The position numbers and the translations under genes are program-made. A stretch of DNA of 32,527 nucleotides from a virus. The notes below the pieces were generated by a model. That model had not been told where the DNA came from, ran no database searches, and worked only from the letters and a program-made list of their open reading frames with translations. The stretch is from IMG/VR virus record IMGVR_UViG_3300049197_000013, positions 1 to 32,527 of that record; one strand, written 5' to 3'. Positions 1 through 30,553 of the stretch are shown one piece after another (position 1 is the first letter of the stretch; every line of letters starts with the position of its first letter).

Positions 1-305
1 TCAATGAATTCCCTTTCACCTGTCGGCGTTGACTCCGAGTTAGAAAACCCAATGAAGTACATGTACGTCTGCCAGGCTAAATACTTTTTGATGTAGCTGT
101 CGTATAGCGTCTGGTTGTCGGCACTTAACGTCTTTGGGTTTGTGCCGTACTGAGTAACGATCTGGTCGTAAAACTCAACCCCTAAAACCTGTTTCAAATC
201 TTCCTGAGCGTCATCGATACAAGGTCGAAACTTGCGTTCATCGATGTTGTCAGATAAGAAACATTCTTCTTTCAGGTACGCTATCGGTATTAATTGTAAG
301 CTCAT
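1..305 (-). CDS. Head-tail connector-like protein, partial (C-terminus outside window)
   Basis: The reading frame starts with ATG at 305-303 and runs off the window edge, giving the first 101 residues (MSLQLIPIAYLKEECF at the start). The start overlaps the portal stop codon as ATGA, so the two genes are translationally coupled and co-transcribed. The visible part is mostly helical and acidic, with FRPCIDDAQEDLKQVLG at about residues 27-43 and a Tyr/Trp-rich helix near 70-85. Small helical proteins directly after a portal gene are often adaptor or head-completion proteins, and that position is the main reason for the call. No diagnostic motif is visible, so the function is inferred from context only. 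Confidence 0.5.
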   Translation of the reverse strand, partial: MSLQLIPIAYLKEECFLSDNIDERKFRPCIDDAQEDLKQVLGVEFYDQIVTQYGTNPKTLSADNQTLYDSYIKKYLAWQTYMYFIGFSNSESTPTGEREFI

Positions 306-1918
306 ACTTCTTCAGTGGTTACTAGCCATGCCGCTAAATCTGTTTCTGTAAGTCCGTAGCTCATTAAAATCTGTTTCGCCTGATCGTAAGTAATTTCGCC
401 TACGTTGAAACGCCGCACTATTTTTTGAATCCTTCCGATCTGGGTAAGGTTCAAATCTTTCAGCGCTTCGTTTGGCTTTGGTGGTTCCGGTACGGGTTGA
501 CCGTTCTCATCTACTGCCGGGGTTGTAGTGCCTTCTGCCGGCGGATTTACTACCGTTGCTGTTCTCACGATCTCAATTTCCGGCATGTTCTTTTTGATGA
601 ACAATACCTTTTCTTGCTCGTTTAAGAACTCCCAAACCTCTTTATTGATTTCAATAGGCTGCGTGATCGGGTTGAAGTTTACAATCTTTGCATCTGCTTC
701 GGGACGCTTCTGCATGTTCGGGAACATGACGTTGTTGTAGAAGTTTTCCAAAACAGTGCGGAACTCTAACGTGCGAGACTGCATGAGTTCGATTGCCTTT
801 TGAATCTCCGACCCTCCCGAACCCAAAGAAACACCTTCCGAGATATTAGCCAGGATAGAAGGAACCTCCGTGGCAATGGTGATGATCTTTATAATGCTGT
901 CCCTAGTGGCAATGAGTTGATCTGACGCGAACGTACTTGGAAACCCGCTTACCTTGGCGGTGGCATCCTGATTTTTTGACCACATTGTAAGCGCTGTACC
1001 CGCTTTCCTAGATCCGCTGAAGTTTGTCCCCATCCACTCATTGAAAGCCTGGCCTACGGTCATTGTAGACTTTTTCTTTTTAGTCACCCCATCAGATAGG
1101 GTTTCTTCGGTCCAATGTTCCGGGTTAGGGCTTGGTGCGTCCGGATCTCCAATCATGTTTATAATAACCGATTGAAAGAATCCGTTTTCCAGTTCTTCGT
1201 TTACAAATTCCTGTAGTTTATGGTCAGCCTGGATAGCCTCTTTGGCGCTCCAATATTTAGGTTTCGGATAGAATCTTGACAGTGGCGACGTTTTGCCATA
1301 GTAAAAAACCTGTCCTGGGTATTGGTCGCGATGCTCTTTATTGAGTTCGGATAGTTCCTTGCTTACGTTCTCAGGATTAAAAACACTGAATTCTTTGGTG
1401 TATTCCTTTTTGTTTTCGAGTGTACCGAAGTACGGATTGTATTTTATGTGGGTGATATACGGTGACTTTTCACCGGGTTCCTTAAACCTACAGCTCTCAA
1501 ATGGGAGCTGGAAGGTATTAACAATCCGGCCAGCCTTGTCGTATTTGAAGTTTACCGAGAATCCCCAAAACAAGGCCAATGAATCAGCTAAGGAGCAATG
1601 GAAGTCCCAAAGGGTGGTGCCGTTCTGATCGATTACAAACTTCTGTAGATCCGGTTCTGAGAAGCCAGAACCCTTTATAAATTGGGCAATGGTATTGATA
1701 CACGATGCTGCAGCCGGGCTTTCTTCCACGGCCTGAGCAATACGCAAAGGTAGTGCGTCATCTTCACCGTAAAGAATTGTACCCTCCGCCCAATTACGCT
1801 GTGCAGGGGTTGAAATTTCACGTTTTAGATTCTCTGGTTCGCTTGATTTCTTACCCCCGAATAGTTGAGGGCTAGGGGAAACGGTGCGCTCTTGTGGATT
1901 TTTGACAGGCTTTCTCAC
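302..1918 (-). CDS. Phage portal protein
   Basis: This 538-residue protein has the size and layout of a portal, the dodecameric ring at the capsid vertex through which DNA enters and leaves. Residues about 55-150 (AEGTILYGEDD, then a helix ending CINTIAQFIKGSGF, then LADSLALFWGFSVNFKY) match the usual portal start, in which a small helical domain precedes the crown and wing. A long helical stretch around 345-415 (DQLIATRDSIIKIITIATEVP; IQKAIELMQSRTLEF) fits the stem region. The C-terminus is Pro-rich and then helical. The likely start is GTG at 1918, because no upstream ATG lies in frame. It is the last virion gene before the connector and follows the carbohydrate module with a 47-base gap. 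The assignment is by pattern, not by a search. Confidence 0.75.
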   Translation of the reverse strand: MRKPVKNPQERTVSPSPQLFGGKKSSEPENLKREISTPAQRNWAEGTILYGEDDALPLRIAQAVEESPAAASCINTIAQFIKGSGFSEPDLQKFVIDQNGTTLWDFHCSLADSLALFWGFSVNFKYDKAGRIVNTFQLPFESCRFKEPGEKSPYITHIKYNPYFGTLENKKEYTKEFSVFNPENVSKELSELNKEHRDQYPGQVFYYGKTSPLSRFYPKPKYWSAKEAIQADHKLQEFVNEELENGFFQSVIINMIGDPDAPSPNPEHWTEETLSDGVTKKKKSTMTVGQAFNEWMGTNFSGSRKAGTALTMWSKNQDATAKVSGFPSTFASDQLIATRDSIIKIITIATEVPSILANISEGVSLGSGGSEIQKAIELMQSRTLEFRTVLENFYNNVMFPNMQKRPEADAKIVNFNPITQPIEINKEVWEFLNEQEKVLFIKKNMPEIEIVRTATVVNPPAEGTTTPAVDENGQPVPEPPKPNEALKDLNLTQIGRIQKIVRRFNVGEITYDQAKQILMSYGLTETDLAAWLVTTEEV

Positions 1919-1965: not shown

Positions 1966-2184
1966 TCACCACTTCTTTAGTTCACATAGGGATTTTTCAC
2001 CAGAATTGGCCATAGCTTTAAGATTGCACCCACAGAAAGCGCATGAGTCGCCGTTCTTTGCAAAACAACTATCACAGATAGTGAGCTTTCGGTCTGCCTC
2101 CCTTTCCTCTATTTTGAAGATAGTTCGATACCAGCCTATGAAAAAAGCTCTAATGGTTTTGATCGAGAATATTTTTCGTACCAT
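1966..2184 (-). CDS. Small four-cysteine (zinc-ribbon-like) protein
   Basis: A 72-residue protein with a basic, hydrophobic N-terminus (MVRKIFSIKTIRAFFIGWYR) followed by a Cys motif ICDSCFAKNGDSCAFCGC, that is CxxC-x7-CxxCxC. Tiny phage proteins with a CxxC...CxxCGCxL pattern are widespread and of unknown role. The paired CxxC motifs suggest a zinc knuckle. I chose the internal ATG at 2184, because the longer frame from 2229 would bury more of its start inside the upstream glycosyltransferase; even so it overlaps that gene by 49 bases. It is the last gene of the carbohydrate module, just before the portal. Function is unknown. Confidence 0.6.
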   Translation of the reverse strand: MVRKIFSIKTIRAFFIGWYRTIFKIEEREADRKLTICDSCFAKNGDSCAFCGCNLKAMANSGEKSLCELKKW

Positions 2185-2864
2185 TCCTTTATACGTTTTT
2201 GATCTTCCCACATGCAATGATAACCCCACCCGCGCTGTTTGTTCTCATCACTGAACCTTTCACGGTATGCAGCGTGTCTTTTTACGAGCCTTTCCGGCCC
2301 TCCTACGTTTCGGTAATGGAGTAAATATAGGGTTTCTTCCGACCATTGGACACGTCCTTTAGGACTGCATACGTGCGCGCCGGCCCTGTAGTTAATATCT
2401 GTTATGGCTTTGGGGTCGAATATGACAGCCTTGGAGTAGTTTTCTTCGTGTATGCCGTTTGTAACATCATACCACGATTGCTCTGGCATACGGTAGCTGA
2501 AAACGTTCCAACCTTGTGTTTTAAAAATGGTTGCATCTTTAATCGTTCTTAATCGATACTTATGGCTGTTGCCCATTAAAACTTCATCGGCATCGACTAC
2601 AATAACATAATCTCGGCGATCATTTCCCGGGTGTGACTTTTTCCAGCAGGAGTTTTTCAAGTCCATGTTTGACCGGTCATCAAATACGCCTTTTTTTCCA
2701 AAGGTTTTTACTTTGGCTCCGAGTGATCTGGCTATGTCTGGACTGCCATCGTCGCTGAAGTTATCCCATACAATAACGCTCTGGCAGAAATTAAGGTAGT
2801 GTTCTACTGTCAGGTGTATCGTATCGGCTTCGTTCCAGCATAGTACGTGTGCTTCAATGTTCAT
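2136..2864 (-). CDS. Family 2-like glycosyltransferase (GT-A fold)
   Basis: This 242-residue protein looks like a GT-A glycosyltransferase of the Glyco_tranf_2_4 type. It begins MNIEAHVLCWNEADTI, the usual nucleotide-binding first strand with a WNE loop, followed by VIVWDNFSDDGS (about 30-41) and the metal-binding DAD motif in VIVVDADEV (about 88-95). The C-terminal half is rich in His, Trp and Tyr (HEENY, GAHVCSP, LLHYRNVGG), typical of acceptor domains in this group. No membrane segment is seen, so it acts in the cytoplasm. ATGA overlap with the upstream gene indicates coupled translation. The sugar and acceptor cannot be read from sequence. Confidence 0.8.
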   Translation of the reverse strand: MNIEAHVLCWNEADTIHLTVEHYLNFCQSVIVWDNFSDDGSPDIARSLGAKVKTFGKKGVFDDRSNMDLKNSCWKKSHPGNDRRDYVIVVDADEVLMGNSHKYRLRTIKDATIFKTQGWNVFSYRMPEQSWYDVTNGIHEENYSKAVIFDPKAITDINYRAGAHVCSPKGRVQWSEETLYLLHYRNVGGPERLVKRHAAYRERFSDENKQRGWGYHCMWEDQKRIKEWYEKYSRSKPLELFS

Positions 2865-3100
2865 ATTTTTTCGAAGCGCTTATGGTGGTAATCCTTCCAT
2901 TCACTGCTTTTAAATGTGAACTCTCGAACGTGAGGTGCAATATCTATATCGGATGGCATTGATCCTGCCATTTGCGTTGAGAAACCCCAGCTAAAAACCT
3001 CAACAACCTCGACTATGTAAGGTTCTTTTGAGTGAGATCCTTTGCCCGGATTTACCCTAAACTTAGCTCCAACTTTAATGTCTCGATAAATGTCGATCAT
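2861..3100 (-). CDS. Small hypothetical protein in carbohydrate module
   Basis: A 79-residue soluble protein, largely beta-strand by composition (YIVEVVEVFSWGFSTQM), with a basic and aromatic C-terminus (WKDYHHKRFEKI). It starts with MIDIYRDIKVGAKFRV, which resembles the first strand of a small barrel. No family was recognised. It is coupled by ATGA overlaps both to the membrane peptide gene upstream and to the glycosyltransferase downstream, so it is very likely expressed, but its role is unknown. Confidence 0.6.
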   Translation of the reverse strand: MIDIYRDIKVGAKFRVNPGKGSHSKEPYIVEVVEVFSWGFSTQMAGSMPSDIDIAPHVREFTFKSSEWKDYHHKRFEKI

Positions 3101-3273
3101 TTTCTTTTCGCTTGAAACACTGAGTCAATGTGCTGTATCGGCTTACCTTTTAAAGAGTCTGGTAAACTCCTTTCTTCAAAGTGATCTGACTTCCAGTAAG
3201 GATGGGATATTGTTTTACGCTGTGTATTGAAAGCGTTTGTCCCGATTGCTAAGGCTATTAGAATGTAGATCAT
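3097..3273 (-). CDS. Small membrane-anchored or exported peptide
   Basis: A 58-residue protein starting MIYILIALAIGTNAFNTQRK. The first 14 residues form a hydrophobic segment ending near an AFN site, so it is either a short signal peptide or a membrane anchor. The rest is polar and charged (HPYWKSDHFEERSLPDSL). I chose the ATG at 3273, because it overlaps the upstream stop as ATGA; a longer frame from 3321 would run through the upstream methyltransferase. No family was recognised. It is one of two tiny membrane proteins embedded among the sugar genes. Confidence 0.55.
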   Translation of the reverse strand: MIYILIALAIGTNAFNTQRKTISHPYWKSDHFEERSLPDSLKGKPIQHIDSVFQAKRK

Positions 3274-3896
3274 ATTCCTTTGATGTAAAGTGCATCGCCC
3301 CAACCAGTATTTCCGCACCATGATGTTTCCACGCGCTTAAACCCGTGACCGTTCAGGAACAAATCAAGATCACCTACAAGTACACATCCTTTGTAAAGTT
3401 CCTGCTGATTGACTTCAGTGTATATCCATTTGAACTGCTTTAACAGATCACCCATGCCACGCAAAGCCAAAAGTTCTGCGCCCTGTAAATCGAGATTGAG
3501 AAAATCAATCGACCCTAGCCCAATTTCATTAAACAAAACATCACCTCGCCGCATGGTTGTTTTGTACGACTCCACATAATGTACTTCTGGGTGTGCTATT
3601 TTATGCGTTCCAAGTTCCAGTATAGAACTACTTTGCCCAGCGTTATTTGATACATGAAAATCTACTTCCTTTCCTTCAACGTCACCCATGCACGCTAAGA
3701 TAATGCCGTGTTTGTACTGATTTGTATTAGTCACAAGTTGTGGTATCAAATCGGGGTTTGCCTCAACCCAAATAACGTCTTTAATTCCCAACTCATCGTA
3801 TACCGGCGCTTCCTCCCCTACGTTTGCTCCAAGGTGTAAAACTCCTGACGGCTTGATGCCGTACTTTGGAAACAGTTTTCTAAAATCGATCAGCAT
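3270..3896 (-). CDS. FkbM family methyltransferase
   Basis: A 208-residue SAM-dependent methyltransferase of the FkbM type. The glycine loop is VLHLGANVGEE (about 19-29), the acidic residue after strand 2 is in WVEANPD (about 43-49), and the characteristic FkbM signature is FLNLDLQGAELLALRGM (about 132-148), close to the family pattern of K/N-x-D-x-x-G-A-E. FkbM enzymes O-methylate natural products and bacterial surface sugars. It overlaps the upstream methyltransferase as TAATG, so the two are translated together. In this setting a sugar hydroxyl is the likely target (inference). Confidence 0.85.
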   Translation of the reverse strand: MLIDFRKLFPKYGIKPSGVLHLGANVGEEAPVYDELGIKDVIWVEANPDLIPQLVTNTNQYKHGIILACMGDVEGKEVDFHVSNNAGQSSSILELGTHKIAHPEVHYVESYKTTMRRGDVLFNEIGLGSIDFLNLDLQGAELLALRGMGDLLKQFKWIYTEVNQQELYKGCVLVGDLDLFLNGHGFKRVETSWCGNTGWGDALYIKGI

Positions 3897-4444
3897 TACT
3901 TTTTACGTTTAGGTTTGATGATATATGCACCCGCGTCTTCCTGTTTGTCTTCATCTATGCGATGTAAATTAATACCTTCCTTTTGTGCGAATTTTCTCAC
4001 AGCTACATTCACGCCATAGGATATATTTTCAAAGTCATGAAAGGCCATCACGCCGGACTCTTTTAACTTTGGCCACCATGCCTCAATATCTTTCGTCACT
4101 GAATCTTCGTCGTGACCCGCGTCGATGTAAACCAGGTCCACCGAATTATCAGGTACGTGCTGCGACATTCTCCATGTGATCCCGCGCAATACTCTTACTT
4201 TATCTTTGAATGGCTTAAACCTTGCCATTGCGGCTTTGTAGTTTGCTTCATGCCATTCATCGTCAAAGTTTCCATCCCCCGTAATACCTGCGATGTGTGA
4301 CCAGTTGTCGACAGCGTAATGCAGTTGTGGTTTCCAGTTCTTTAGGATGTGTTCCGAAAAATAGCCCTCTGCCACGCCGCATTCTACTGTCACCGGATTT
4401 GCAGGGATGAGTTTGTTAAGATCGATTCTGTATTTTATAGTCAT
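3896..4444 (-). CDS. Class I SAM-dependent methyltransferase (Methyltransf_24-like)
   Basis: A 182-residue Rossmann-fold methyltransferase. The SAM-binding loop is VECGVAEGYFSEHIL (about 19-33) and the post-loop acidic residue is in YAVDNW. The sequence VDLVYIDAGHDEDSV followed by WWPKLKESGVMAFHDF (about 105-140) is typical of the Methyltransf_24 group, where the DxGH and HDF residues line the active site. It is coupled to the GT25 gene upstream by ATGA and to the FkbM gene downstream by TAATG. The substrate is unknown; modification of a sugar is inferred from the neighbours. Confidence 0.8.
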   Translation of the reverse strand: MTIKYRIDLNKLIPANPVTVECGVAEGYFSEHILKNWKPQLHYAVDNWSHIAGITGDGNFDDEWHEANYKAAMARFKPFKDKVRVLRGITWRMSQHVPDNSVDLVYIDAGHDEDSVTKDIEAWWPKLKESGVMAFHDFENISYGVNVAVRKFAQKEGINLHRIDEDKQEDAGAYIIKPKRKK

Positions 4445-5226
4445 GATGCTTCGTGCCAGTTAAATGCATCGGGGTCAAATTCACTCATTAAGTTTTTCCA
4501 CACGTAAGGGCCGTTGTTTAAATGCCCGCTCCATACTGTCATACCTTGACCTATGTTCGATTGATTATCGATCTGATAGACGCAACCAGGGACAAAGGAG
4601 AAACATTTTAATTGAGGTTGCAGCTTGATAAAAAGCCAGTCGATCCCAATTGATTCGTGTACGTGATGGTCAAGTAGTTTAATGATCTTGTCCAGTGATT
4701 TGTAATTCACTAAGTACGCAAAGGTATTGTAACAGCCATAGGTACGGATCATGCGCGGGTCGTCGGTTCTCTTTACGTCGTAACCTAAATTAGCTGAACA
4801 GTTCGGACGCATCATTGATTCACCTTTCCTATGCCAGTGTGGCGGGTTGATGTGAAACGCAGCCCCAAGCCATACAATATCCCATTCGTGAGCTTCAGAC
4901 CAGTTAGAAATATACTCCATGCGTTCGTGAAAGTCGGAGCAGAATTTAATATCATCCTCCAAAACTATTGCATTAAGTCCAAGCTCTAACGCCGTTTTCA
5001 TCACTTCAACTTGTGAAAGATGGCATCCAATTGCGCCGGGTGTTCGCTCATACATCACCCGATACTTTGGGTTTTTGTAGTCTGTTTCCTTCCACGGAAA
5101 ACTTCTTTGTCGTACTGCATTGATACCGACGCGGTTTAGTTCCGTGTTCATGTGCTGCAATCGGTCCAACCTTTCGTCAAGGTTGCAGAATGAAATATAG
5201 CTGCTGTCTAGTAAATCAATTTTCAT
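4441..5226 (-). CDS. Family 25 glycosyltransferase
   Basis: A 261-residue protein with the hallmarks of GT25, the family of LPS beta-galactosyltransferases and relatives. It has an N-terminal block with CNLDERLDRLQHM (about 14-26), then GAIGCHLSQVEVMKTAL (about 64-80), then the metal-binding AIVLEDDI (about 86-93). The His/Trp-rich region near 125-135 and SIGIDWLF (about 192-199, with the conserved D before WLF) also fit. It is cytoplasmic with no signal peptide. Its start overlaps the preceding methyltransferase by 11 bases. It would add a hexose to a growing glycan; donor and acceptor are unknown. Confidence 0.85.
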   Translation of the reverse strand: MKIDLLDSSYISFCNLDERLDRLQHMNTELNRVGINAVRQRSFPWKETDYKNPKYRVMYERTPGAIGCHLSQVEVMKTALELGLNAIVLEDDIKFCSDFHERMEYISNWSEAHEWDIVWLGAAFHINPPHWHRKGESMMRPNCSANLGYDVKRTDDPRMIRTYGCYNTFAYLVNYKSLDKIIKLLDHHVHESIGIDWLFIKLQPQLKCFSFVPGCVYQIDNQSNIGQGMTVWSGHLNNGPYVWKNLMSEFDPDAFNWHEAS

Positions 5227-6346
5227 TTTTGCGGATTAAAACTTGATACCCTTTGTGTAGTACTGTGATCTTTGGGCGGTGTGTGTCCAGAAACTTATCA
5301 ATGCCTCTTTTGGTTTCTTCCCTCCATTCGTAATCATCGAATAGAATATGACCGCCTACCTTTGTCACTCGAAAGGCGTTGCATCCATCCAAAAACACTT
5401 CATTTTCCCGGTGATCGCCGTCGATGTAGATGAAGTCAAATTGATAGTCCCAAAGTTTACCGAATGCTTGTGGCGTTGTCTCCCTGATTAGTTCTATCGG
5501 ATAACCTTTTGTGTTCTTGATGAACCTTTCATACTGCCCGACGAACATATGATTGTCTGGATGGCCGGGTAGGTATTCGTCTGTAAGTGGATCTACGCAG
5601 ATCATGCGCCCTCCTGACTTCAAAAGATTTTCACAGATATAACGAGACGTTAGCCCCTCAAAACATCCGATCTCCAAAGCAAAATCAAACTTCATTCCCT
5701 TGGTGTTCTTGATAAATTCACCGTTCCAATTTTGTGTAAAGTCTGACATGGCAAATATTACGTTTTCTTTGTCGTCTGTTTTGAGTGATTTGTATCCGAA
5801 TGATTCAACATAAGAAACAATGTCTGCAAATGTTCTCCCTGTTACCTGGATGTGTTCGGCGTATTCGACCTGTATAAATTTGATCGCTTTTTCTGTGAGC
5901 ATGTTTTTGGCTCCCTCCAATACCATAAGTTCCGCGCCCTCCACGTCGATCTTTAAGAGGTCAATGTGATTTAATAGATGGCGGTCGCAGTAATCGTCAA
6001 TCCGGTCTGTCTGGACTTGCTTTTTCTTCCACGGTAACTCATCCCACTTGTTGTTTCCAATGATGTTGGATAGGCCGTTGTTCTCGTTTGTGAAGTAGGT
6101 AAATTCAGCGGACCCGATCTTGTTACTCAGTGCGTCGGTATTGTACACGATGTTTTTCTGATCGCAGAAACGCACCATTGAGTAATGGAGTAATATTTCG
6201 TTAGGTTCAAAAAGGTGAATCTCTGAAACGTTCCTCACAAACAAGTCAGAGAAATCACCCTTGTTACTCCCTACGTCGAAAACAATTGAATGCTTATCGA
6301 AGTACGGGAATAGATTTAATACGCTTTGCTTTTCTTCGTTGCTCAT
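5216..6346 (-). CDS. Two-domain methyltransferase: FkbM fused to Methyltransf_24-like
   Basis: A 376-residue protein holding two complete methyltransferase domains. The N-terminal FkbM domain (about 1-210) shows VFDVGSNKGDFS, HLFEPNE and the signature LLKIDVEGAELMVLEGA. The C-terminal class I domain (about 215-376) shows FALEIGCFEGLTSRYI, ICVDPL, then FDFIYIDGDHRENEVFLDG and HILFDDYEW. I start it at the ATG at 6346, because this gives the ATGA overlap seen throughout this operon; a longer frame begins at 6397 inside the upstream membrane protein gene. Both catalytic domains look intact. It probably methylates two positions of a glycan (inference). The same two domain types occur as separate genes 1-2 kb downstream. 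Confidence 0.85.
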   Translation of the reverse strand: MSNEEKQSVLNLFPYFDKHSIVFDVGSNKGDFSDLFVRNVSEIHLFEPNEILLHYSMVRFCDQKNIVYNTDALSNKIGSAEFTYFTNENNGLSNIIGNNKWDELPWKKKQVQTDRIDDYCDRHLLNHIDLLKIDVEGAELMVLEGAKNMLTEKAIKFIQVEYAEHIQVTGRTFADIVSYVESFGYKSLKTDDKENVIFAMSDFTQNWNGEFIKNTKGMKFDFALEIGCFEGLTSRYICENLLKSGGRMICVDPLTDEYLPGHPDNHMFVGQYERFIKNTKGYPIELIRETTPQAFGKLWDYQFDFIYIDGDHRENEVFLDGCNAFRVTKVGGHILFDDYEWREETKRGIDKFLDTHRPKITVLHKGYQVLIRKNEN

Positions 6347-6534
6347 TTTGTAACCAATTCGAATATACCGGCAAAGTAATAAACAAGCATCGTGCAAATG
6401 AATATGAAGAAGGCCGAGAAATAACCGGCAGAGGTTGATACGCTGTCCTCCTTTAAATTCATCTGCTTCATAAGCTGAGCGCCAAGTGTTACAAATGGCC
6501 AGCAGATAATGACAAATAAGAAAAATGTCTTCAT
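6343..6534 (-). CDS. Small two-helix membrane protein
   Basis: A 63-residue protein with two predicted membrane segments, FFLFVIICWPFVTLGA (about 4-19) and YFSAFFIFICTMLVYYFAGI (about 38-57), joined by a short polar loop. No family was recognised. It is coupled by ATGA overlaps to the epimerase upstream and the two-domain methyltransferase downstream. Such a protein could tether the sugar enzymes to the inner membrane, but nothing in the sequence shows this. Confidence 0.6.
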   Translation of the reverse strand: MKTFFLFVIICWPFVTLGAQLMKQMNLKEDSVSTSAGYFSAFFIFICTMLVYYFAGIFELVTK

Positions 6535-7508
6535 TTCTTCATTTCGTTTTCAATCCAATGATATGTTTTAGACAGTCCTTCAGCAAGTGAAAACTTAGGT
6601 TCCCAATTTAATACTTTTCGGATCAAGTCGTTATTTGAATTCCTACCCCTTACCCCTGTTGGACCGTCGATGTGTTCAATTTTCAAATCCTTCCCACCGA
6701 TGAACATGGCTAATTTTGCCAGCTCATTGATTGATACCATTTCTTCGCTCCCTATATTGATAGGTTCCTTAAAGTCGGACTGCATTAATAACCTGACAGC
6801 GTCGATACAGTCATCAATGTAAAGGAATGATCTGGTTTGTTCACCGTCGCCCCAAATCAAAATAGTGTCATTAGATTCAATAACCTTTCTACAGATCGCC
6901 GCCGGTGCCTTTTCTTTGCCTCCACTCCATGTTCCCATTGGGCCGTAAATGTTGTGGAAGCGGGCTATACGAACATCAAGCCCATAAGACAGCATGGCTG
7001 ATTCGTGCATTTTTTCGGAACATAGCTTTTGCCATCCGTATATAAGATCTGGCCATGCCGGGTAAGCGTCTGACTCTTTTAATCCTGGGTTAGCTTCACT
7101 TTCCTGTATGTGCTGATTGTAGACACACGCTGAACTGGAATAGAAAACTTTAATGCCTCGGTTAACGCAGCAGTCCAGAATGTTAGTTATGATCTGAGTA
7201 GACCCAATCATTACGTCATAGCTGTATTCTGGTTTTCCTATGTAACCCATTCCACCCATTAAACAGGCGAGTGAATAAACTTCATCGATGTGATCGTAAC
7301 CTTCAAGAAATTTATTTGGCCAGAATATTTGTGCTACAAGATTTTTTACCCGTAAATCGAACGGATAGAACTTATCAGGCTTGTTGTATTTTGGTTCTTC
7401 AATGTCAGCTCCAACAACAAAATATCCTTCAGACTGTAGGCGTTTAACCAAGTGACCACCTATAAAACCGGATGATCCAGCAACGAAAGCAACTTTATCG
7501 GTTCGCAT
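6531..7508 (-). CDS. GDP-mannose 3,5-epimerase-like NAD-dependent epimerase
   Basis: A 325-residue extended short-chain dehydrogenase. The NAD-binding GSSGFIGG lies at 11-18. The active site shows SSSACVY (Cys128), YGWQK (Tyr157, Lys161) and GGKEKAPAA (Lys200). From memory, plant GDP-mannose 3,5-epimerase uses Cys145, Tyr174, Lys178 and Lys217, and the spacings (29, 4, 39) are identical here. Other near-verbatim family blocks are RFHNIYGP, WGDGEQTRSF, NIGSEEMVS and GPTGVRGRNSNN. The known reaction converts GDP-D-mannose to GDP-L-galactose (and GDP-L-gulose). The start is the ATG at 7508, just before the Rossmann strand; a frame from 7607 adds 33 residues that overlap the endonuclease gene. 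It supplies a donor sugar for the adjacent transferases (inference). Confidence 0.88.
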   Translation of the reverse strand: MRTDKVAFVAGSSGFIGGHLVKRLQSEGYFVVGADIEEPKYNKPDKFYPFDLRVKNLVAQIFWPNKFLEGYDHIDEVYSLACLMGGMGYIGKPEYSYDVMIGSTQIITNILDCCVNRGIKVFYSSSACVYNQHIQESEANPGLKESDAYPAWPDLIYGWQKLCSEKMHESAMLSYGLDVRIARFHNIYGPMGTWSGGKEKAPAAICRKVIESNDTILIWGDGEQTRSFLYIDDCIDAVRLLMQSDFKEPINIGSEEMVSINELAKLAMFIGGKDLKIEHIDGPTGVRGRNSNNDLIRKVLNWEPKFSLAEGLSKTYHWIENEMKK

Positions 7509-7935
7509 AATCAGATTTTTTAAGACCCTTGTTCCACGCAATACAAACACCCTTAGTGCCGGTGTTCCACGGCTTTTGTCCGGCGTGGGAAACTCTAGAT
7601 TTTTCAATTGAACAATCGCTGTGCTTTCCGTTCCAACCCGGTGCCTTTAAGTTCATCATACTGTACCCTGCTGATTCAAAAATCGAGTAGTAGAACTTCT
7701 CCCAAAAATCTAATTCAGTCCTGTTCGGCTTGTACTCAAAATGTTTTAGAATATCGATTCTATGGGAATCAAATCCATAGCGCCTGAGGCTGTCCATAAC
7801 CTTTACTTGGTTGTGACATGTGAGCGTCTTGTATCGGCTTCTGCGATTGGTTAAATCAGTTGTTTGCCCTACGTAAGCACTCTTGTCAGGAGCAACTAAC
7901 ACATAAATTGCGCTGTACTTATATCGTTTACCCAT
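7495..7935 (-). CDS. GIY-YIG homing-type endonuclease with NUMOD3-like C-terminus
   Basis: A 146-residue protein. The N-terminal GIY-YIG nuclease core is visible as IYVLVAPDKSAYVGQTTDL (about 10-28), where IYV and YVG stand for GIY and YIG, followed by the conserved Arg in NRRSRY and a Glu in helix LDFWEKFYY. The C-terminus carries GQKPWNTGTKG and AWNKGLKKS, the repeated KPWNKG-type signature of NUMOD3 DNA-binding modules. Free-standing phage endonucleases of this type cut at intronless sites and spread themselves by gene conversion. It sits between a glycosyltransferase and the epimerase, overlapping both (8 and 14 bases), without an intron visible. Confidence 0.85.
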   Translation of the reverse strand: MGKRYKYSAIYVLVAPDKSAYVGQTTDLTNRRSRYKTLTCHNQVKVMDSLRRYGFDSHRIDILKHFEYKPNRTELDFWEKFYYSIFESAGYSMMNLKAPGWNGKHSDCSIEKSRVSHAGQKPWNTGTKGVCIAWNKGLKKSDYANR

Positions 7936-8656
7936 TGAGTGTTTTTAATTCCTGTTCAATTCTTTGATGTAGTCCGCGCTCCGTTCTGCGCACGTTCTTT
8001 TTGTAGTGGCTTTCTTCTTCTTTGCCGTGATCTTCTACTCGGTGCGTGTATTCTAATCCTGGAACGACATAGAAGTTGTTTCCAGCTTTCAGCCAGTTCA
8101 GGTTATGGTAAATTGAATCACTTGTCACCGGGTCAATGCTGCCGTCCCAGACTCTTAAATATTCGTCACGGTTTACAAAGTAGTTGAAAGCGTTTAGCAT
8201 GGTTGAGAATGTTGCGTCTACCATGTACTTCCCTACGTTTGATTTGTCGATTAAGAAAGATTCGTACTTTCTAAAATCGAAGTGAGGTTTAGCGAACGAT
8301 GGATGGTAAACAGTCTTACGATTCAGTCCGGCGATCCATAGATTTTCTAAACGATCGATGAATGTTTTGTCGAATTGGTTGTCGGAGTCCAGAATACAAA
8401 CCCACTCGTTTGAGGCCTTTGAAATTGCTTCGCGCTTGTTACGATAACAGTCGAGGTTCATTGCGTTTCTGAATAGCTTAACCTTTGCGCAGTCGTCGGC
8501 GGGCAGAACTGATTGAAGGAACTTTGCTGTATCTACTTTATCGCTGGCATCGTCAACGATAACTATTTCATTTACGAATGGGTGACTAAGAATGTCTTTG
8601 AATGCTTTCCAAAGTAACTCCGTCCGGTTATAGGTTGTAAAACAAACGCTGATCAT
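7928..8656 (-). CDS. Family 2 glycosyltransferase
   Basis: A 242-residue GT-A glycosyltransferase. It begins MISVCFTTYNRTELL, the classic GT2 first strand, followed by IVIVDDASD (about 31-39) and the DxD motif in CILDSDNQF (about 87-95). The C-terminal acceptor region contains DPVTSDSIYHNLNWLKAG and ends in a charged helix. No membrane segment is seen. It overlaps the GT11 gene upstream by one base (TAATG) and the endonuclease gene downstream by eight. It transfers a nucleotide-activated sugar; donor and acceptor are unknown. Confidence 0.85.
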   Translation of the reverse strand: MISVCFTTYNRTELLWKAFKDILSHPFVNEIVIVDDASDKVDTAKFLQSVLPADDCAKVKLFRNAMNLDCYRNKREAISKASNEWVCILDSDNQFDKTFIDRLENLWIAGLNRKTVYHPSFAKPHFDFRKYESFLIDKSNVGKYMVDATFSTMLNAFNYFVNRDEYLRVWDGSIDPVTSDSIYHNLNWLKAGNNFYVVPGLEYTHRVEDHGKEEESHYKKNVRRTERGLHQRIEQELKTLNG

Positions 8657-9423
8657 TAATATTCTATTTGAATCCAGTTGCTACAAGGAATGTCTTTAGG
8701 GTTTTGTACTCCGTTCTCAGGGCCAAACCAGTTTTTATAAGAGGGACACACTACAATCTTATCCGGGTTATGTCCGAGGAAGGCACCCCACCAGGAAAAT
8801 GAAGAATTTGCAATGATGTGATGTGAGCATGAAGCCATCAAAGAAAGTGACTTGAACTCGTCTTTTTCTTCGCAGTACTCAAACCATGTTGATGGTGTTC
8901 TCAATAGTTCGAGATTCTTTTTGCAGTATTCTATATCGTCTGAGAAAACAATAATCTTTTTAAATGGCATTATCTGATCAGGGAATGAAGGACTCTCTAG
9001 ATAAGGCATGCAGTTAATCGCCTTCCTGACGTACTCCATTGTAACCGGCGGAAAGTGGCTCGGATTTGTTGCATAGTCGCCCATTCTGATATGCAATGAG
9101 ATTGCGGTCATTGGCTGTATTGCCAATGCAAACATTTTCTTTATTTCTTCGTCGTACCCTTCAAAGACCAGTGTTATATCTCTGTTGAAGTTTGGTAGTG
9201 GTTCATAATTGAAAAACACCGGCTCTGTTCTGTTCACTCTTTTAAAGTTACCATCGAGTACCGGAACAGCGGGAAACATTTTACGGAAGTGTGGCACCTC
9301 TCTTGTGTCTGAAGGTATACCCCAATGGCACTTGTATTTACGAGCGTATGCGTAAGTAGCGGCGACCTGAAAAAGGACGTTTCCACAGCGCCCGACTGGA
9401 TGAAAATTCACTTGATGCGTCAA
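8656..9423 (-). CDS. GT11 family glycosyltransferase (alpha-1,2-fucosyltransferase-like)
   Basis: A 255-residue protein with GT11 signatures: VGRCGNVLFQVAATYAYA (about 10-27) and HIRMGDY (111-117, the GDP-binding HxRxGDY). Later blocks are IVFSDDIEYCK (about 148-158) and SHHIIANSSFSWWGAFL (about 190-206). GT11 enzymes transfer L-fucose from GDP-L-fucose in alpha-1,2 linkage. It is somewhat shorter than typical members (about 280-300), and the usual GYFQS motif is replaced by FEGYDEE. No GDP-fucose synthesis gene is present here, but a GDP-mannose 3,5-epimerase is, so GDP-L-galactose may be the donor (inference). The start is uncertain: TTG at 9423 overlaps the upstream stop, and GTG at 9411 is an alternative. 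Confidence 0.88.
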   Translation of the reverse strand: MTHQVNFHPVGRCGNVLFQVAATYAYARKYKCHWGIPSDTREVPHFRKMFPAVPVLDGNFKRVNRTEPVFFNYEPLPNFNRDITLVFEGYDEEIKKMFALAIQPMTAISLHIRMGDYATNPSHFPPVTMEYVRKAINCMPYLESPSFPDQIMPFKKIIVFSDDIEYCKKNLELLRTPSTWFEYCEEKDEFKSLSLMASCSHHIIANSSFSWWGAFLGHNPDKIVVCPSYKNWFGPENGVQNPKDIPCSNWIQIEY

Positions 9424-10121
9424 AGATTTATTATTTTAAATTGTTTACCGTTGATCCAGATACTAAATAACCGCTCCAAAACAAATGGAGCTATTGGCCA
9501 ATCTAATCTGCCAGTCTTCGCTTTATATATCTCCACCGCTTTAGGATCTGTCCTTTCTTTTTTACGGGCATAACCGGAGTCGGCAAAAAACACACTACGT
9601 GTAGACATAAAGTCAATGACAGGATTGAGGCACCCAGCCACATAAGACTTATAAATATCCGAGCGGCAAATGAAAGCGTTTTCATATATAGGGGTTTCAA
9701 CTTCTTCGGGAATGTCGATAATATTTTTCAGTTCCTTCATGGCGTTATCCCATGCGTAGTCGTGCATGCTTCCACCGTGGTAAACGTTAGCCATGTGTAG
9801 CATTCTGTGAGAAGAAGAAAAGGGCCGCAAGTTCACGATGTCGGCATCACTGGCCCTTATTCCATCCTTCAACTTGTCCAAACTCAAATCATCATTGCCG
9901 TAAATCTTCAATATCATTGGACAGAATCCATCCTGTCTTTTTTGTCTGAGTCTCCATGAAGCAATGCCGATGTAGTCAGCCGAACTTTTAGGAACCAAAT
10001 ATTTAATAACGCTATTTTCAAAGTAATCCGTGAGCGTGTTATTCCTGTAAGGCGTAGCGAAATCGTAACATTCTTTGAGCTGATCATCTGCGTAATATAT
10101 CTGGATGAAGTCTAAGGTCAT
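9420..10121 (-). CDS. Possible glycosyltransferase, family uncertain
   Basis: A 233-residue soluble protein starting MTLDFIQIYYADDQLKECYD. It contains DYIGIASWRLRQKRQDGF (about 48-65) and ends PFVLERLFSIWINGKQF. The combination of an 'I-G-I...R' block and a C-terminal LERLFSxW block recalls DUF4422-type glycosyltransferases, but the resemblance is weak and I cannot confirm it. Start ATG at 10121 gives an ATGA overlap with the upstream small gene. Position at the head of the sugar module supports a glycan-related role. Confidence 0.5.
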   Translation of the reverse strand: MTLDFIQIYYADDQLKECYDFATPYRNNTLTDYFENSVIKYLVPKSSADYIGIASWRLRQKRQDGFCPMILKIYGNDDLSLDKLKDGIRASDADIVNLRPFSSSHRMLHMANVYHGGSMHDYAWDNAMKELKNIIDIPEEVETPIYENAFICRSDIYKSYVAGCLNPVIDFMSTRSVFFADSGYARKKERTDPKAVEIYKAKTGRLDWPIAPFVLERLFSIWINGKQFKIINL

Positions 10122-10309
10122 TTCACATCCTGTAAAAAATCCAAAACCATTTGATAACACTTACTGCATCTATGCTCCGCTTTCATCTTCGTACCCCTGG
10201 CTTCGTTGTATAGATCAAATGCAGCCTTCCAATTATCTGTCACCTCCATAGTGTTGATCTGACGAGAGGCTTTTAAGCGGTTCAATATTTCTTCTTTTGT
10301 GATCGTCAT
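10118..10309 (-). CDS. Small CxxC protein, first gene of carbohydrate module
   Basis: A 63-residue helical protein starting MTITKEEILNRLKAS, with WKAAFDLYNEARGT in the middle and CSKCYQMVLDFL near the end. Small phage proteins with an AF-LYNE helix followed by a late CxxC are common, but I know no function for them. The frame extends up to 10381, but that extension runs back through the terminator at 10314-10365, so I choose the ATG at 10309, five bases after the hairpin's T-run. It overlaps the next gene as ATGA. Confidence 0.6.
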   Translation of the reverse strand: MTITKEEILNRLKASRQINTMEVTDNWKAAFDLYNEARGTKMKAEHRCSKCYQMVLDFLQDVK

Positions 10310-10313
10310 ATAC

Positions 10314-10365
10314 AAATAAAAAAACCTACCGAGAGTCGAGCCGTGCCGCCCTTCCCCCGGTAGGT
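10314..10365 (-). terminator. Rho-independent terminator between virion genes and carbohydrate module
   Basis: On the minus strand, ACCTACCG (10365-10358) pairs perfectly with CGGTAGGT (10331-10324), and the second arm runs into T7 then ATTTG. The 26-base loop is GC-rich and may fold further. Orientation fits termination of transcripts coming from the capsid and tail side. Read-through or a separate promoter would then be needed for the sugar module. Confidence 0.75.
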
Positions 10366-10495
10366 CTATGAAAACCCCCAATAATAAACCAACTAATTAC
10401 CCTTATGTTTGGCACGAACATGAAGCGAAGGTATAAAATTTTTCGAATTGTCCTATTTCCTCATAAAGAGAATTTTATTCCCTGATCTGTGGAAC

Positions 10496-11050
10496 CTAGT
10501 TCTCAAAGTTCTCCAGGTACGCTTTTGTTGCAGCGTAACCGCCTCCAAGCCGGAAACGCAAAGGTTTTGTCTTTTCGTTACCGCTCAAAGTACCGCTATC
10601 TGCGGTATCTCCGCCCTGTTCTTTTCCACCTGATCCACCTGTGCCAGACGTTCCCGTGAGTCCGTTCGACGCGCCCAGCAGGAAAAATTCCTGGTTCATA
10701 TCCTCCACGATAATGAAAATATCATCACCGATTAAAAGGCTTTGTACGTTCGCGTCGTCGGTTGTGGAGTCTGGCATCAGCTTCCAGTTGAAAGCCTGGT
10801 TGAAACTCTTACTACCTCCCGATGCTACGGCCATTTCCCATGTGAAGTCATGGCTAAACTTTGAACCCTCGAAAGGATAAAGTACACCATACGCGCCAAA
10901 GTCAATGGAGTTTATATCAGCAGTTTGGGCTATCGAGAAAGGAGTGTCCAGGTCGGACAGATAGCCGACCCAGAACTTTTTACCTAAACCTGAAGCCTTC
11001 GTTAGTGCCGAACAGGAGTTATCGATTCCGTCTGTTACTTTACAGCTCAT
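10496..11050 (-). CDS. Virion structural protein, probable tail tube or capsid-associated
   Basis: A 184-residue, beta-rich, acidic protein. The core includes FWVGYLSDLDTPFSIAQT, SIDFGAYGVLYPFEGSKF and SFNQAFNWKLM, followed by an aliphatic strand (LLIGDDIFIIVEDMNQEFF) and a Gly/Ser/Thr-rich flexible segment near 130-160. It directly follows the capsid gene and has the strongest ribosome binding site in the window, both consistent with a highly abundant virion protein such as the tail tube. No diagnostic motif is present; a decoration or head protein is the alternative. Confidence 0.55.
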   Translation of the reverse strand: MSCKVTDGIDNSCSALTKASGLGKKFWVGYLSDLDTPFSIAQTADINSIDFGAYGVLYPFEGSKFSHDFTWEMAVASGGSKSFNQAFNWKLMPDSTTDDANVQSLLIGDDIFIIVEDMNQEFFLLGASNGLTGTSGTGGSGGKEQGGDTADSGTLSGNEKTKPLRFRLGGGYAATKAYLENFEN

Positions 11051-11057
11051 AATCTTA

Positions 11058-11064
11058 CCCTCCT
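11058..11064 (-). promoter_or_regulatory. Strong Shine-Dalgarno sequence for gene at 10496-11050
   Basis: AGGAGGG on the minus strand lies 7 bases before the ATG at 11050, in the 19-base gap after the capsid gene. It is exceptional here: most starts in the window are ATGA overlaps or have no recognisable Shine-Dalgarno sequence. Confidence 0.7.
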
Positions 11065-11069
11065 ATTGT

Positions 11070-13337
11070 TTAGTACATGATCGTTTGAAGATCGCAATGC
11101 AGGTAGTTGTAGCCGAACTTCATGTCTGACTCGTAATAGAACTTGCGGTCTTTACGCTCATACCAGCCCTCGATCTTGTTGAGGTCTGAGCCTTGTTCTA
11201 CGCCGAGAATGTGGTTTTCTTTTACAGTCAACAGGATCAAGTGCGCGGTTGTACCGAACAATGGATTGTCTGTTTCTGCCAAGAAAGAATCCCACAGGTC
11301 AACCGGAATAACCGGGATGCCCTTGTAAGTCAGGGTCGTCAAACCTTTCTGCAAGTTCTCAAATGCTTGCTCTGTTACCGCGCCGGTTCCGATCAAACTG
11401 TTGTAGTAGTTATCCCAGATCGAATGGGTTACAAAGAACTTCTTACCTGGTGCGTTCTTCAACAAAATATTGCTCTGTGAATACGCTGTTTCAAGGTGCG
11501 TCAGTGCGTTACCCGCTGAAAGCGCAGCTGTTCCGAGCGCTGTACCTGCTCTGCGTACGCAGTAGTTTGAGGCACCAGACGAATCAATCAAGCGATCCCA
11601 CAGACCGTCGATTTGGTTGTAGTCTGCATCCGAGCTGTTACCAGCCGCGAAAGATACTCTGCGGAATACGTCGCGCTGCAATGCGTCAGCAAGTACGCGG
11701 TCGATCACTGTTGCAATCGGAGTTCCCGAAGGATCAAAAGAACGGTTTCCAGTCTTCAACCATTCCTGAGCGAGTAGGTTATACGCGCCTGTCAATTGGC
11801 CTGTAAAGTCATCCTTACACCATGATTCTGAAACCTGGAATTCTTTGGTCTGCACAGTTGTGTTAGTCACAAGCTGGCGGTTGTCATTGAATGTACGGGT
11901 ACATCCAGTATAAGGGCGAAGTATCTTGTCAAGCTGTGTGACAAGGTTGTAACGCTTGCGGTCCTTGATCCCTTGATCGATGGTGAAAATATCCGACAAT
12001 GCCGGTGCCTGAAGGGTCGGCTTGTAGAAAATTTCAGTCGTCAAAATACCAGGGTAGGTATAATTGAAGTTCGTTTCCAGGATCGAAACCATGTTCGGGC
12101 CTGACGAATACGCGGCTACTTCTTTTTCAGGGTAGTATTGGAAGATCCAAGGCATGTGTTCCGCGAAGAAACGCATGGTTTTATCTCTTTCCTGTGCGGC
12201 TACTGGTCCGCGTGAATTTGGTCCTAACATAGCTGGTCCTTTATTCGGCGCTCCTTGATCGCCTACGGGTTCTGCTTCAATTTCTTTTTTGATGGCTGCG
12301 ACTGCTTGCACTGCCTTTTCTTTTTCCTGTGCAGCGATCTTTGCAGCTTCTTCGGCTTTCGCTTTCGCTTGTGCTGCGGCCTCTGCTTCTGCTTTCAGCT
12401 TTTGGAATTCTGCTTCCATTGCAGCGAGTCTTTGCTCTGCTGTCTGTGCGGGAGCTGGGGCAGGTGTCGGAGCGGGTGCCGGTGCTGGCGTTGGGCTTGC
12501 TTGTGCTGCGGCTTTCACCTCAGTTACTACGCCACCTTCAGCGATCAAAGTGCGTCCGTCCTTCAATGCAAATGATCCGCTTGCGGGTTGACCGTTAAGC
12601 GTTACGGGCTTGCCTACAAATTCACCGTCTTCGGATTGAACGTTAAGCATGCCTTTATCAGATTCTAAATCCATTGCAGTAGGGTTGCCACTGATAATAT
12701 TCGCAACCATAGCAAGTACTTTGTCTTTTAATGTTTTTTCCATGTTCTTTTTAATTGGTTTGCCGATGGCTACGGCTTTTAAATAATGACCGTCAACTAC
12801 TTCGTCCACAAATCCAAGCTCCTTTGCCTGTTGGGCTGTAAGGGTTGTTTCCTTTGCCATCATGTCCTTCATTTTCTCCAATGGTAAATTGGTTTTCCGG
12901 ACATAAGCATTAGCCATTTCCTCTTCAATTGGGATCAATTCGTTAGCGCCTTTAATCAGATCCGAAGCTGTTGAACCCTGCATGCTTTGACGCGGGTTGT
13001 GGATCATGAAAACAGAAGGGTTACAAATACTGATCTTATCGCCAGCTAGTGCGATAAAGGTGGCCATACTTTGGGCTTCGCCCTCGATGATGGTTTCTAT
13101 AGGTTTGTTTGCGGCCTTGAGTGCGTGATAGATTTTATATCCGGCATAAACGGATCCGCCAGGTGAGGCAATACGAAGGAGTAATTTTGATTTACCTGCA
13201 TTCGCTGATAGCTGTTGTTTGACTTCCGACAAGGTGCCGTCGTCAATAACGCCGTCGATAAAAATGTGCCCTACATCCTGTGTCATGCCGCTAATTTCAA
13301 AAGAATAAGAGCGGTTACGCATGACAGAAAATGTCAC
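11070..13337 (-). CDS. Fusion of ClpP-like prohead protease, coiled-coil linker and major capsid protein
   Basis: A 755-residue fusion. Residues about 20-185 are a ClpP/S14-like protease: IASPGGSVYAG at 56-66, nucleophile Ser90 in GEAQSMATF, His113 in FMIHNPRQS, and Glu163 where ClpP has its catalytic Asp, before LTAQQAKELGFVDEV. Residues 282-297 are a Pro-Ala linker and about 300-355 an Ala/Glu/Lys coiled coil, which would be the scaffold or delta domain. Residues about 385-755 look like an HK97-type capsid protein (NFNYTYPGILTTEIFYKP; SNILLKNAPGKKFFVTHS; GIPVIPVDLWD). Separate genes are usual. The start is GTG at 13337 overlapping the upstream stop (GTGA); ATG at 13322 is an alternative. 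Self-cleavage would release mature capsid protein (inference). Confidence 0.85.
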   Translation of the reverse strand: MTFSVMRNRSYSFEISGMTQDVGHIFIDGVIDDGTLSEVKQQLSANAGKSKLLLRIASPGGSVYAGYKIYHALKAANKPIETIIEGEAQSMATFIALAGDKISICNPSVFMIHNPRQSMQGSTASDLIKGANELIPIEEEMANAYVRKTNLPLEKMKDMMAKETTLTAQQAKELGFVDEVVDGHYLKAVAIGKPIKKNMEKTLKDKVLAMVANIISGNPTAMDLESDKGMLNVQSEDGEFVGKPVTLNGQPASGSFALKDGRTLIAEGGVVTEVKAAAQASPTPAPAPAPTPAPAPAQTAEQRLAAMEAEFQKLKAEAEAAAQAKAKAEEAAKIAAQEKEKAVQAVAAIKKEIEAEPVGDQGAPNKGPAMLGPNSRGPVAAQERDKTMRFFAEHMPWIFQYYPEKEVAAYSSGPNMVSILETNFNYTYPGILTTEIFYKPTLQAPALSDIFTIDQGIKDRKRYNLVTQLDKILRPYTGCTRTFNDNRQLVTNTTVQTKEFQVSESWCKDDFTGQLTGAYNLLAQEWLKTGNRSFDPSGTPIATVIDRVLADALQRDVFRRVSFAAGNSSDADYNQIDGLWDRLIDSSGASNYCVRRAGTALGTAALSAGNALTHLETAYSQSNILLKNAPGKKFFVTHSIWDNYYNSLIGTGAVTEQAFENLQKGLTTLTYKGIPVIPVDLWDSFLAETDNPLFGTTAHLILLTVKENHILGVEQGSDLNKIEGWYERKDRKFYYESDMKFGYNYLHCDLQTIMY

Positions 13338-13540
13338 CCGTTAAGATAGGTACGCTTCACGCGTTGCACGGTACGCTCCGATATTCTGTGTTTGTCGGCC
13401 ACGGCCCCGATGGTCATACCGCTTTTAATGTCCTCTAAAATAGATCTGTCTCGCAAGGCATAAGGCGCGGCGATGCCACACATAACAGCTTTTTTGGTTT
13501 CTGCTTCGCTCATGTCTAACGGGGTTCCTGTTCGCTTCAT
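13334..13540 (-). CDS. Small helix-turn-helix protein
   Basis: A 68-residue basic protein starting MKRTGTPLDMSEAETKKAV. Residues about 38-66 (DIKSGMTIGAVADKHRISERTVQRVKRTYLNG, given in part) form a resolvase/HTH_7-like helix-turn-helix: IGAVADKHRIS is helix 2 and turn, RTVQRVKRTY the recognition helix. I choose ATG at 13540, because the longer frame from 13573 begins inside the tail-tip gene. It sits between the tail-tip and capsid genes, an unusual place for a DNA-binding protein. It may regulate the late operon or assist packaging; neither is shown. Confidence 0.65.
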   Translation of the reverse strand: MKRTGTPLDMSEAETKKAVMCGIAAPYALRDRSILEDIKSGMTIGAVADKHRISERTVQRVKRTYLNG

Positions 13541-13545
13541 CTTTT

Positions 13546-29770: not shown

Positions 29771-30553
29771 ATGGCTTTATCAGAAGTTTTTAATGAGGAT
29801 TGTTTAGCAGGTATGAAGCGATACCCTGATCGATATTTCGATCTACTAGTTACTGATCCCCCTTACGGAATGACGAATAACGAATGGGATAATCCAATTG
29901 ACTTAAACGCTTTGTGGCCTGAGTGGGAGCGTATTGTTAAGGAGGATGGAGCGATGATCTTCACGACAGCCCAGCCTTTCACCACTGATTTGATAGCATC
30001 TAACAAGCGTAATTTTCGGTATGACTTGATTTGGGAAAAGTCTATCGCTACGGGCTTTCTAAATGCAAACCGAATGCCTTTACGTGGGCATGAAGTAGTT
30101 TGTGTTTTCTATCGAAAGTTGCCTGTGTATAATCCTCAAAAGTACAAATTAGAAGGGCGACCATCATTCAAAAAAGGGAACAAGGCAAGAGGCTCTAAGA
30201 ATTACGGAACCTTCACACATGAAATGGATATAGGCTCGAAGGATGGCACAAGGTTTCCGCGCTCTGTTTTTACAGTTGACTACGAAAACTCATTCTTTGA
30301 CTCATCATTTGACTCAGTTCAAAAGATGATTCACCCAACTCAAAAACCAGTATCACTATTTCGATACTTGATTGCAACATACAGCAATAAAGGGGATAAA
30401 GTTCTCGACTGTTACATGGGTTCCGGGTCGTCGAGGGTAGCCGCTTTTGAGGAAAATCGAGATTATGTCGGATTTGAGATCAATGAAGAATATTTCAACA
30501 ATCAGCAAGCGCGTTTTACTAACCATACCAAACAACTAAAACTGATTGCATAA
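29771..30553 (+). CDS. DNA methyltransferase (beta class, N6-adenine or N4-cytosine)
   Basis: A 260-residue SAM-dependent DNA methyltransferase. The catalytic motif IV is DPPYG (29-33). HPTQKP (188-193) and the SAM motif I DCYMGSGSSRVAA (213-225) come later, so the order is that of the beta class. No restriction enzyme is nearby. Orphan phage methyltransferases usually protect phage DNA against host restriction or modify gene expression. The target base cannot be read from sequence: DPPY is used by both N6-adenine and N4-cytosine enzymes. Confidence 0.9.
   Translation: MALSEVFNEDCLAGMKRYPDRYFDLLVTDPPYGMTNNEWDNPIDLNALWPEWERIVKEDGAMIFTTAQPFTTDLIASNKRNFRYDLIWEKSIATGFLNANRMPLRGHEVVCVFYRKLPVYNPQKYKLEGRPSFKKGNKARGSKNYGTFTHEMDIGSKDGTRFPRSVFTVDYENSFFDSSFDSVQKMIHPTQKPVSLFRYLIATYSNKGDKVLDCYMGSGSSRVAAFEENRDYVGFEINEEYFNNQQARFTNHTKQLKLIA

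Follow-up and report, generated by a model that had tools for sequence, protein, structure and literature searches.

We describe a putative glycan-assembly locus in a phage genome fragment, IMG/VR virus record IMGVR_UViG_3300049197_000013, which was analyzed over its whole length (a linear fragment of 32,527 bp; hereafter, the window). The locus, or island, is a run of minus-strand genes from position 10309 to position 1966 between the capsid and portal genes, and encodes a GDP-mannose 3,5-epimerase (GME) together with glycosyltransferases (GTs) and methyltransferases. We consider the chance to be about even that the island is core to a group of phages, is arranged with their head genes, and assembles a methylated, L-galactose-containing glycan carried on the virion.

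From the terminases (~23.8 kb), the minus-strand order runs through tail-type proteins, a ClpP-type protease fused to the major capsid protein (MCP; 11070–13337), a protein at 10496–11050, the island (10309–1966) and the portal protein (302–1918). With refined ATG starts, the island showed 14 successive gene overlaps of 1–94 nt each; because every junction overlaps, we read its genes as one translationally coupled unit. The initial annotation of this DNA had described an overlapping minus-strand run between capsid-side genes and the portal gene, containing GT11, GT2, GT25, FkbM and class I methyltransferase genes. The genes, their order and their strand were all borne out, and the families, which we checked with Pfam and NCBIfam, were confirmed by Pfam (PF01531, PF00535/PF13704, PF01755, PF05050, PF13578). 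Overlooked at that stage was a GIY-YIG endonuclease gene, not a sugar gene, between GT2 and GME (7495–7935). The order of genes across 302–23796 is itself unusual: the capsid gene comes after the tail-type genes, and the portal gene lies beyond both the capsid gene and the island, distant from the terminase.

Relatives (given L numbers below) were gathered by alignment-based searches of viral contigs with the portal protein, GME, MCP and U246, a transferase-like protein of the island. A single-sequence portal search of the viral contigs was empty, and an alignment query was needed. The resulting group comprises 48 contigs, the window included. The genes on which the argument depends are the following.

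302–1918, minus strand: portal protein, downstream border of the island (phrog_11226, E 7e-41; 36–54% identity to 13 relatives)
6531–7508, minus strand: GME with ATG at 7508 (the open reading frame (ORF) from TTG 7607 extends into the upstream gene); matched by plant GMEs in the PDB, full catalytic set
8656–9423, minus strand: GT11 (fucosyltransferase-type), an atypical copy (PF01531, 1.3e-19, residues 97–227 only)
9420–10121, minus strand: U246, GT-A-like, with ATG at 10121 (ORF to 10160); AF2 model of pLDDT 87, Foldseek matches mostly GT-A transferases
10496–11050, minus strand: conserved structural-operon protein, weakly tail-tube-like, a possible acceptor (weak phrog_19091; near U246 in 46 contigs)
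11070–13337, minus strand: ClpP-type head protease fused to MCP, upstream border and a possible acceptor (PF00574, 2e-33; phrog_94, 7e-51)

The epimerase and the sugar donor of GT11

The best PDB matches of the window GME were plant GMEs (8sg0 and the 2c5a series, E about 1e-87; 8sg0, E 7.5e-88 over residues 9–325), compared with E 6e-27 or worse for the next PDB families. In ATG-start numbering, residues S126, C128, Y157, K161, K200 and R289 correspond to S143, C145, Y174, K178, K217 and R306 of the Arabidopsis enzyme (residue roles according to PMC6678494), and the GxxGxxG NAD motif is present. The alignment register was fixed because the PDB chains 2c5a, 2c54 and 2c5e differ from the wild type at Y174, K178 and K217. 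The catalytic residues were invariant among seven phage GMEs. Thus, the earlier identification of a GME with the full catalytic set agreed with both the PDB alignment and the residues, and the formation of GDP-L-galactose, along with GDP-L-gulose, is well supported by the catalytic residues. We regard it as very likely that the window GME makes GDP-L-galactose.

At least 595 IMG/VR stretches encode a GME or a relative of it. In cyanophages, UDP-glucose 4-epimerase or nucleotide-sugar epimerase is the annotation given to many GMEs, and among the matches listed, that of S-SCSM1 alone is named GME. Such frequent occurrence, with UDP-glucose 4-epimerase often the label in phage records, indicates that viral L-galactose metabolism has been widely overlooked. 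The GMEs of the group formed one supported clade (100/99) containing one outsider, L004. A recent common origin of the island with the cyanophage clusters is not supported by this separate clade. Of 83 loci outside the group that were picked by their GME, 45 also had a GT11 within reach, in 19 cases directly beside GME.

GDP-L-galactose and GDP-L-fucose, the usual donor of GT11 enzymes, differ by the 6-hydroxyl. The initial annotation had proposed that the GT11 uses L-galactose, and the genomic association with GME speaks for this part of the claim. GME was coupled to all 16 group GT11s with enough flanking sequence, and GDP-mannose 4,6-dehydratase (GMD) or GDP-fucose synthase was found beside none of them (0/16). 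Among the 77 viral loci outside the group that were most similar to the window GT11, 34 were coupled to GMD/GDP-fucose synthase, six to GME, none to both and 37 to neither. The group GT11s formed a single clade (SH-aLRT 99), and in a tree of 140 GT11s the coupling type required 10 changes, compared with about 25 on average, and never fewer than 20, under shuffled labels; this shuffling demonstrates clustering only, because relatives share neighbours.

Two observations weaken this case. The first concerns the window copy, which lacks the 8-residue GFFQSxKYF-type stretch kept in each of the other 22 GT11s aligned and reads HIRMGD at motif I (Met for the second Arg), against HxRRGD in 18 of 19 relatives. 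This makes the window copy less surely active than the related GT11s, although its GT11 membership by profile stands; a comparison with PDB sequences gave no match. The second is that L115 carries a GT11 with no GME within its 15.4-kb fragment, which leaves room for host-supplied GDP-fucose as donor. The GT11 could thus keep host-made GDP-L-fucose while GME feeds another island transferase, such as GT25 or a GT2. The more frequent coupling of other viruses' GT11s to GMD/GDP-fucose synthase points the same way as L115, whereas the lack of fucose genes beside the 16 assessable group GT11s and the separation of the group clade from fucose-coupled GT11s argue against it, and we give this alternative a clearly smaller chance. 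On these sequence comparisons, the GT11 of the phage group probably uses GDP-L-galactose; for the window's own GT11, the likelihood of such use falls slightly short of even.

The slot between capsid and portal genes

We then examined the position of the island among the relatives. The arrangement MCP, minor protein, U246, island and portal was fixed in the 31 contigs whose slot is visible from the 10496-type protein to the portal. GME occurred in 13 of these 31 slots, always with GT11, a PF00535-type GT2, FkbM and the terminal GT2; GT25 was present in 11 of the 13. Other slots were shorter: those of L100, L101 and L104 held U246 and the terminal GT2 only, and in L136–L138 U246 was the sole sugar-type gene, with its end some 50 bp short of the portal gene. 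In L107, GMD and an FdtA-like cupin replace GME, and its close relative L134 has neither. These variants indicate that the slot is fixed, that U246 is its core, and that the donor-sugar genes are exchangeable.

U246 was present in 48 of 48 group contigs and was thus the most persistent gene of the locus. In the 46 contigs in which both U246 and the 10496-type protein are visible, the two lie at most 2.5 kb apart, mostly <1 kb. No Pfam family matched U246 significantly, a motif scan of 84,980 bacterial and archaeal genomes found no relatives, and no match was found in isolate phages. Its weaker viral fold matches include Ardmore gp87, a probable mycobacteriophage GT (PMC10955285). Two distant relatives showed other arrangements: L140 has two tandem U246 copies (9995–10678 and 10819–11490) ahead of the portal gene, and in L015 a repetitive fibre-like gene (L015:2843-4021) separates the 10496-type gene from U246, and the GTs and methyltransferases that come next, before the portal gene, are a different set.

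For the 10496–11050 protein, no homologues were found in isolate phages; its AF2 model had a pLDDT of 76, and Foldseek gave weak tail-tube matches, none of them significant. The ClpP-type protease and MCP form a single ORF in the window, L100, L104, L109, L121 and L134, and separate ORFs in other relatives.

Mean pairwise identities across 14 contigs were 0.49–0.64 for U246 and the island proteins, in line with the 0.46–0.51 of MCP, the portal protein and the small structural protein, and gene order was preserved across contigs with capsid identity as low as 38%. In close pairs, dN/dS was 0.03–0.19 for island genes compared with 0.04–0.14 for MCP; such low values indicate purifying selection that maintains the enzymes. 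In L118 and L119, the block from GT11 to the portal gene was identical, and MCP and U246 differed at synonymous sites (dS 0.33 and 0.18, respectively), which shows that the glycan cassette and the portal gene were exchanged as one block. The idea that all island genes are simply inherited along with the capsid thus holds only in part.

The acceptor and alternative roles of the island

The initial annotation had placed a methylated L-galactose glycan on a phage protein or on host polysaccharide. Our results favour the first of these acceptors and assembly in the cytoplasm. A virion acceptor is favoured because of the head-gene position of the island, the core gene U246, and the lack of GtrA and integrase in relatives: neither GtrA nor a tyrosine integrase was found among 15 related records, which include several fragments. 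These absences, like the earlier observation that no flippase is visible, speak against Gtr-type lysogenic O-antigen conversion. Hydropathy gave no transmembrane segments in the island GTs; phage-encoded GTs with no membrane export machinery seen beside them are a feature that the island shares with phage virion-glycosylation systems. We consider a virion protein to be the probable acceptor. A tail-fibre gene downstream of the portal gene in L009 encodes another possible acceptor.

We propose that GME would convert host GDP-mannose to GDP-L-galactose, a step strongly suggested by its catalytic residues. Glycan synthesis may then be initiated by U246, in the cytoplasm and on a phage protein, for which MCP and the adjacent 10496–11050 protein are the likeliest candidates; the GT2s, GT25 and GT11 would extend the glycan, GT11 contributing L-galactose rather than L-fucose, and its hydroxyls would be methylated by the FkbM and Methyltransf_24 enzymes. 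The virion would thus carry a methylated oligosaccharide that contains L-galactose and that lineages would vary by swapping genes between U246 and the portal gene. Lineage-swapped glycan genes fit a surface trait under diversifying pressure.

Several points weigh against this proposal. Known phage GTs also modify the host surface or DNA. The fold evidence for U246 is collective, with no single PDB match at E <0.001. The related records are fragments, so that absences from them are soft. Finally, GME divergence tracks MCP divergence only weakly (r 0.17), so that GME, too, is exchanged inside the group.

The foremost alternative for the acceptor is that the island remodels the host surface, adding L-galactose to a host polysaccharide or lipid-linked glycan in the course of infection and thereby blocking superinfection or the sticking of progeny to debris. 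This is the usual reading of cyanophage GME/GT clusters (PMC9602691), and some of the island GTs weakly match O-antigen or capsule GTs. However, besides the missing GtrA and integrase, no GT is membrane-anchored, the island is located among head genes, and its anchor is a phage-only gene that persists without the other GTs; we consider host-surface remodelling unlikely. Much less probable is that the GTs glycosylate hypermodified bases of phage DNA, although various phage GTs are known to act in this way (work cited in PMC12619734). No thymidylate-synthase family protein (PF00303, the base-hydroxymethylating type) or hydroxymethylase homologue was found in eight related records, and among the 41 ORFs scanned of the 44.7-kb relative L009 there were DNA methylases of the Dam and N6/N4 families and no base-hypermodification family; moreover, FkbM and GT25 are glycan-synthesis families. 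The least probable reading, passing cargo from host capsule loci without selected function in the phage, could draw on the stretch lost from the window GT11 and the homing endonuclease inside the gene run, but it is largely refuted already by the low dN/dS in the group, the preserved gene order and the open frames throughout the island.

Regarding the host, distant portal relatives belong to phages of Cellulophaga, Tenacibaculum and Bacteroides, and Shine-Dalgarno sequences at gene starts showed no excess (5/41 compared with 6.75 by chance). Both are consistent with a Bacteroidota host; searches of bacterial genomes with U246 and the portal protein found no relatives and no host genome. A bolder reading, which we hold less likely than not, is of a whole group of probably lytic phages, apparently of Bacteroidota, with a core virion-glycosylation locus in the head operon, in which a phage-only initiating U246 of a new GT-A-like family would be followed by an exchangeable cassette that in many members supplies GDP-L-galactose to a GT11 lineage switched from L-fucose, giving virions lineage-specific glycans that are methylated and contain L-galactose.

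Known systems and remaining genes

The window GME resembles the plant and Methylacidiphilum enzymes (2c5a series; PMC6678494) in its full-length match, Cys/Lys acid-base pair, Ser/YxxxK, Arg and NAD motif, and differs in being phage-encoded, with a role presumably in glycan synthesis rather than ascorbate. GME in phages is already known: it has been named as a phage metabolic gene in cyanophage S-SCSM1 (PMC9602691), and many cyanophages carry it under other names. In Synechococcus phages S-SCSM1, S-PRM1 and S-SSM7, GME likewise lies near GT11 and other GTs; however, these clusters occur in large T4-like genomes, have no U246 match and were not seen between capsid and portal genes, and S-SCSM1 additionally carries GMD and GDP-fucose synthase, unlike the window.

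Precedent for phage-encoded GTs acting on virion proteins comes from mycobacteriophages Che8 and Rita, whose GTs have been linked to capsid and tail-tube glycans (Freeman 2023, as cited in PMC11256854 and PMC12619734). These are temperate actinophages, and the GTs of Maravista lie near the genome 3΄ end. In chlorovirus PBCV-1 (A064R, A061L), virus-encoded GTs and O-methyltransferases build a methylated capsid-protein glycan (PMC9614988); this is an N-glycan with an L-rhamnose cap in a eukaryotic algal virus, and the likeness meant here is one of working.

In the literature searched, we found no description of a phage group whose glycan locus holds a fixed place between the capsid and portal genes and combines an exchangeable donor cassette with a transferase-like gene that is invariant and confined to phages. 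To our knowledge, tailed-phage virion glycosylation is known from few isolates. A group with a head-fixed locus, one constant transferase-like gene and an exchangeable cassette would allow the idea of glycans as a variable coat to be tested, and the island supplies candidate L-galactose-specific GT11s and a candidate new GT family (U246).

The remaining genes of the island are as follows.

1966–2229, minus strand: small CxxC zinc-ribbon-like protein overlapping the last GT, just before the portal gene; homologues or like ORFs in L002, L003, L100, L107, L115 and L134 (weak DUF6171 match of the L107 copy)
2136–2864, minus strand: GT2-type (Glyco_tranf_2_4), last GT of the island (PF13704, 2.7e-10); retained in the one-GT islands of L100/L101/L104
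2861–3100, minus strand: small protein, no Pfam family; no match in L002–L004
3097–3321, minus strand: small protein, not membrane-like (no hydrophobic segments); not seen in the relatives compared
3270–3896, minus strand: FkbM-family methyltransferase (PF05050, 6e-16; TIGR01444), conserved in the group
3896–4444, minus strand: class I methyltransferase (Methyltransf_24; PF13578, 1e-17)
4441–5226, minus strand: GT25 glycosyltransferase (PF01755, 1.4e-10), in 11 of 14 contigs compared
5216–6346, minus strand: FkbM–Methyltransf_24 fusion with ATG at 6346, ORF to 6397 (PF05050, 3e-18; PF13578, 3e-15)
6343–6534, minus strand: 63-aa protein with two hydrophobic segments (hydropathy)
7495–7935, minus strand: GIY-YIG / group I intron-type homing-endonuclease-like protein (TIGR01453, 2e-10; PF01541, 0.0025; both below curated cut-offs)
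7928–8656, minus strand: GT2 glycosyltransferase (PF00535, 2.5e-15)
10118–10309, minus strand: small CxxC protein preceding U246; a similar small ORF occupies the corresponding position in L107, L134, L136 and L140

Of the two tiny membrane proteins initially annotated, the one at 6343–6534 is therefore retained on its hydrophobic segments, and the one at 3097–3321, which has none, is not.

The GIY-YIG gene is missing at the GT2–GME position in most relatives. Endonuclease-type genes lie directly upstream of GME in the window (7495–7935) and in L108 (L108:12387-13061), and the window GIY-YIG protein and the LEM-3-like GIY-YIG protein of L108 have a common C-terminus, AWNKGLKKxDYANR, located where GME starts. 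The position-equivalent gene of L004 (L004:9059-9592) is a different 177-aa gene for which Pfam gave no match. An insertion hot spot seems to lie at the 5΄ end of GME.

Elsewhere in the window, a small helix-turn-helix-like protein is encoded among the structural genes immediately before the capsid gene (13334–13573), and the plus-strand region contains a DNA methylase-like gene with a DPPY motif (29771–30553).

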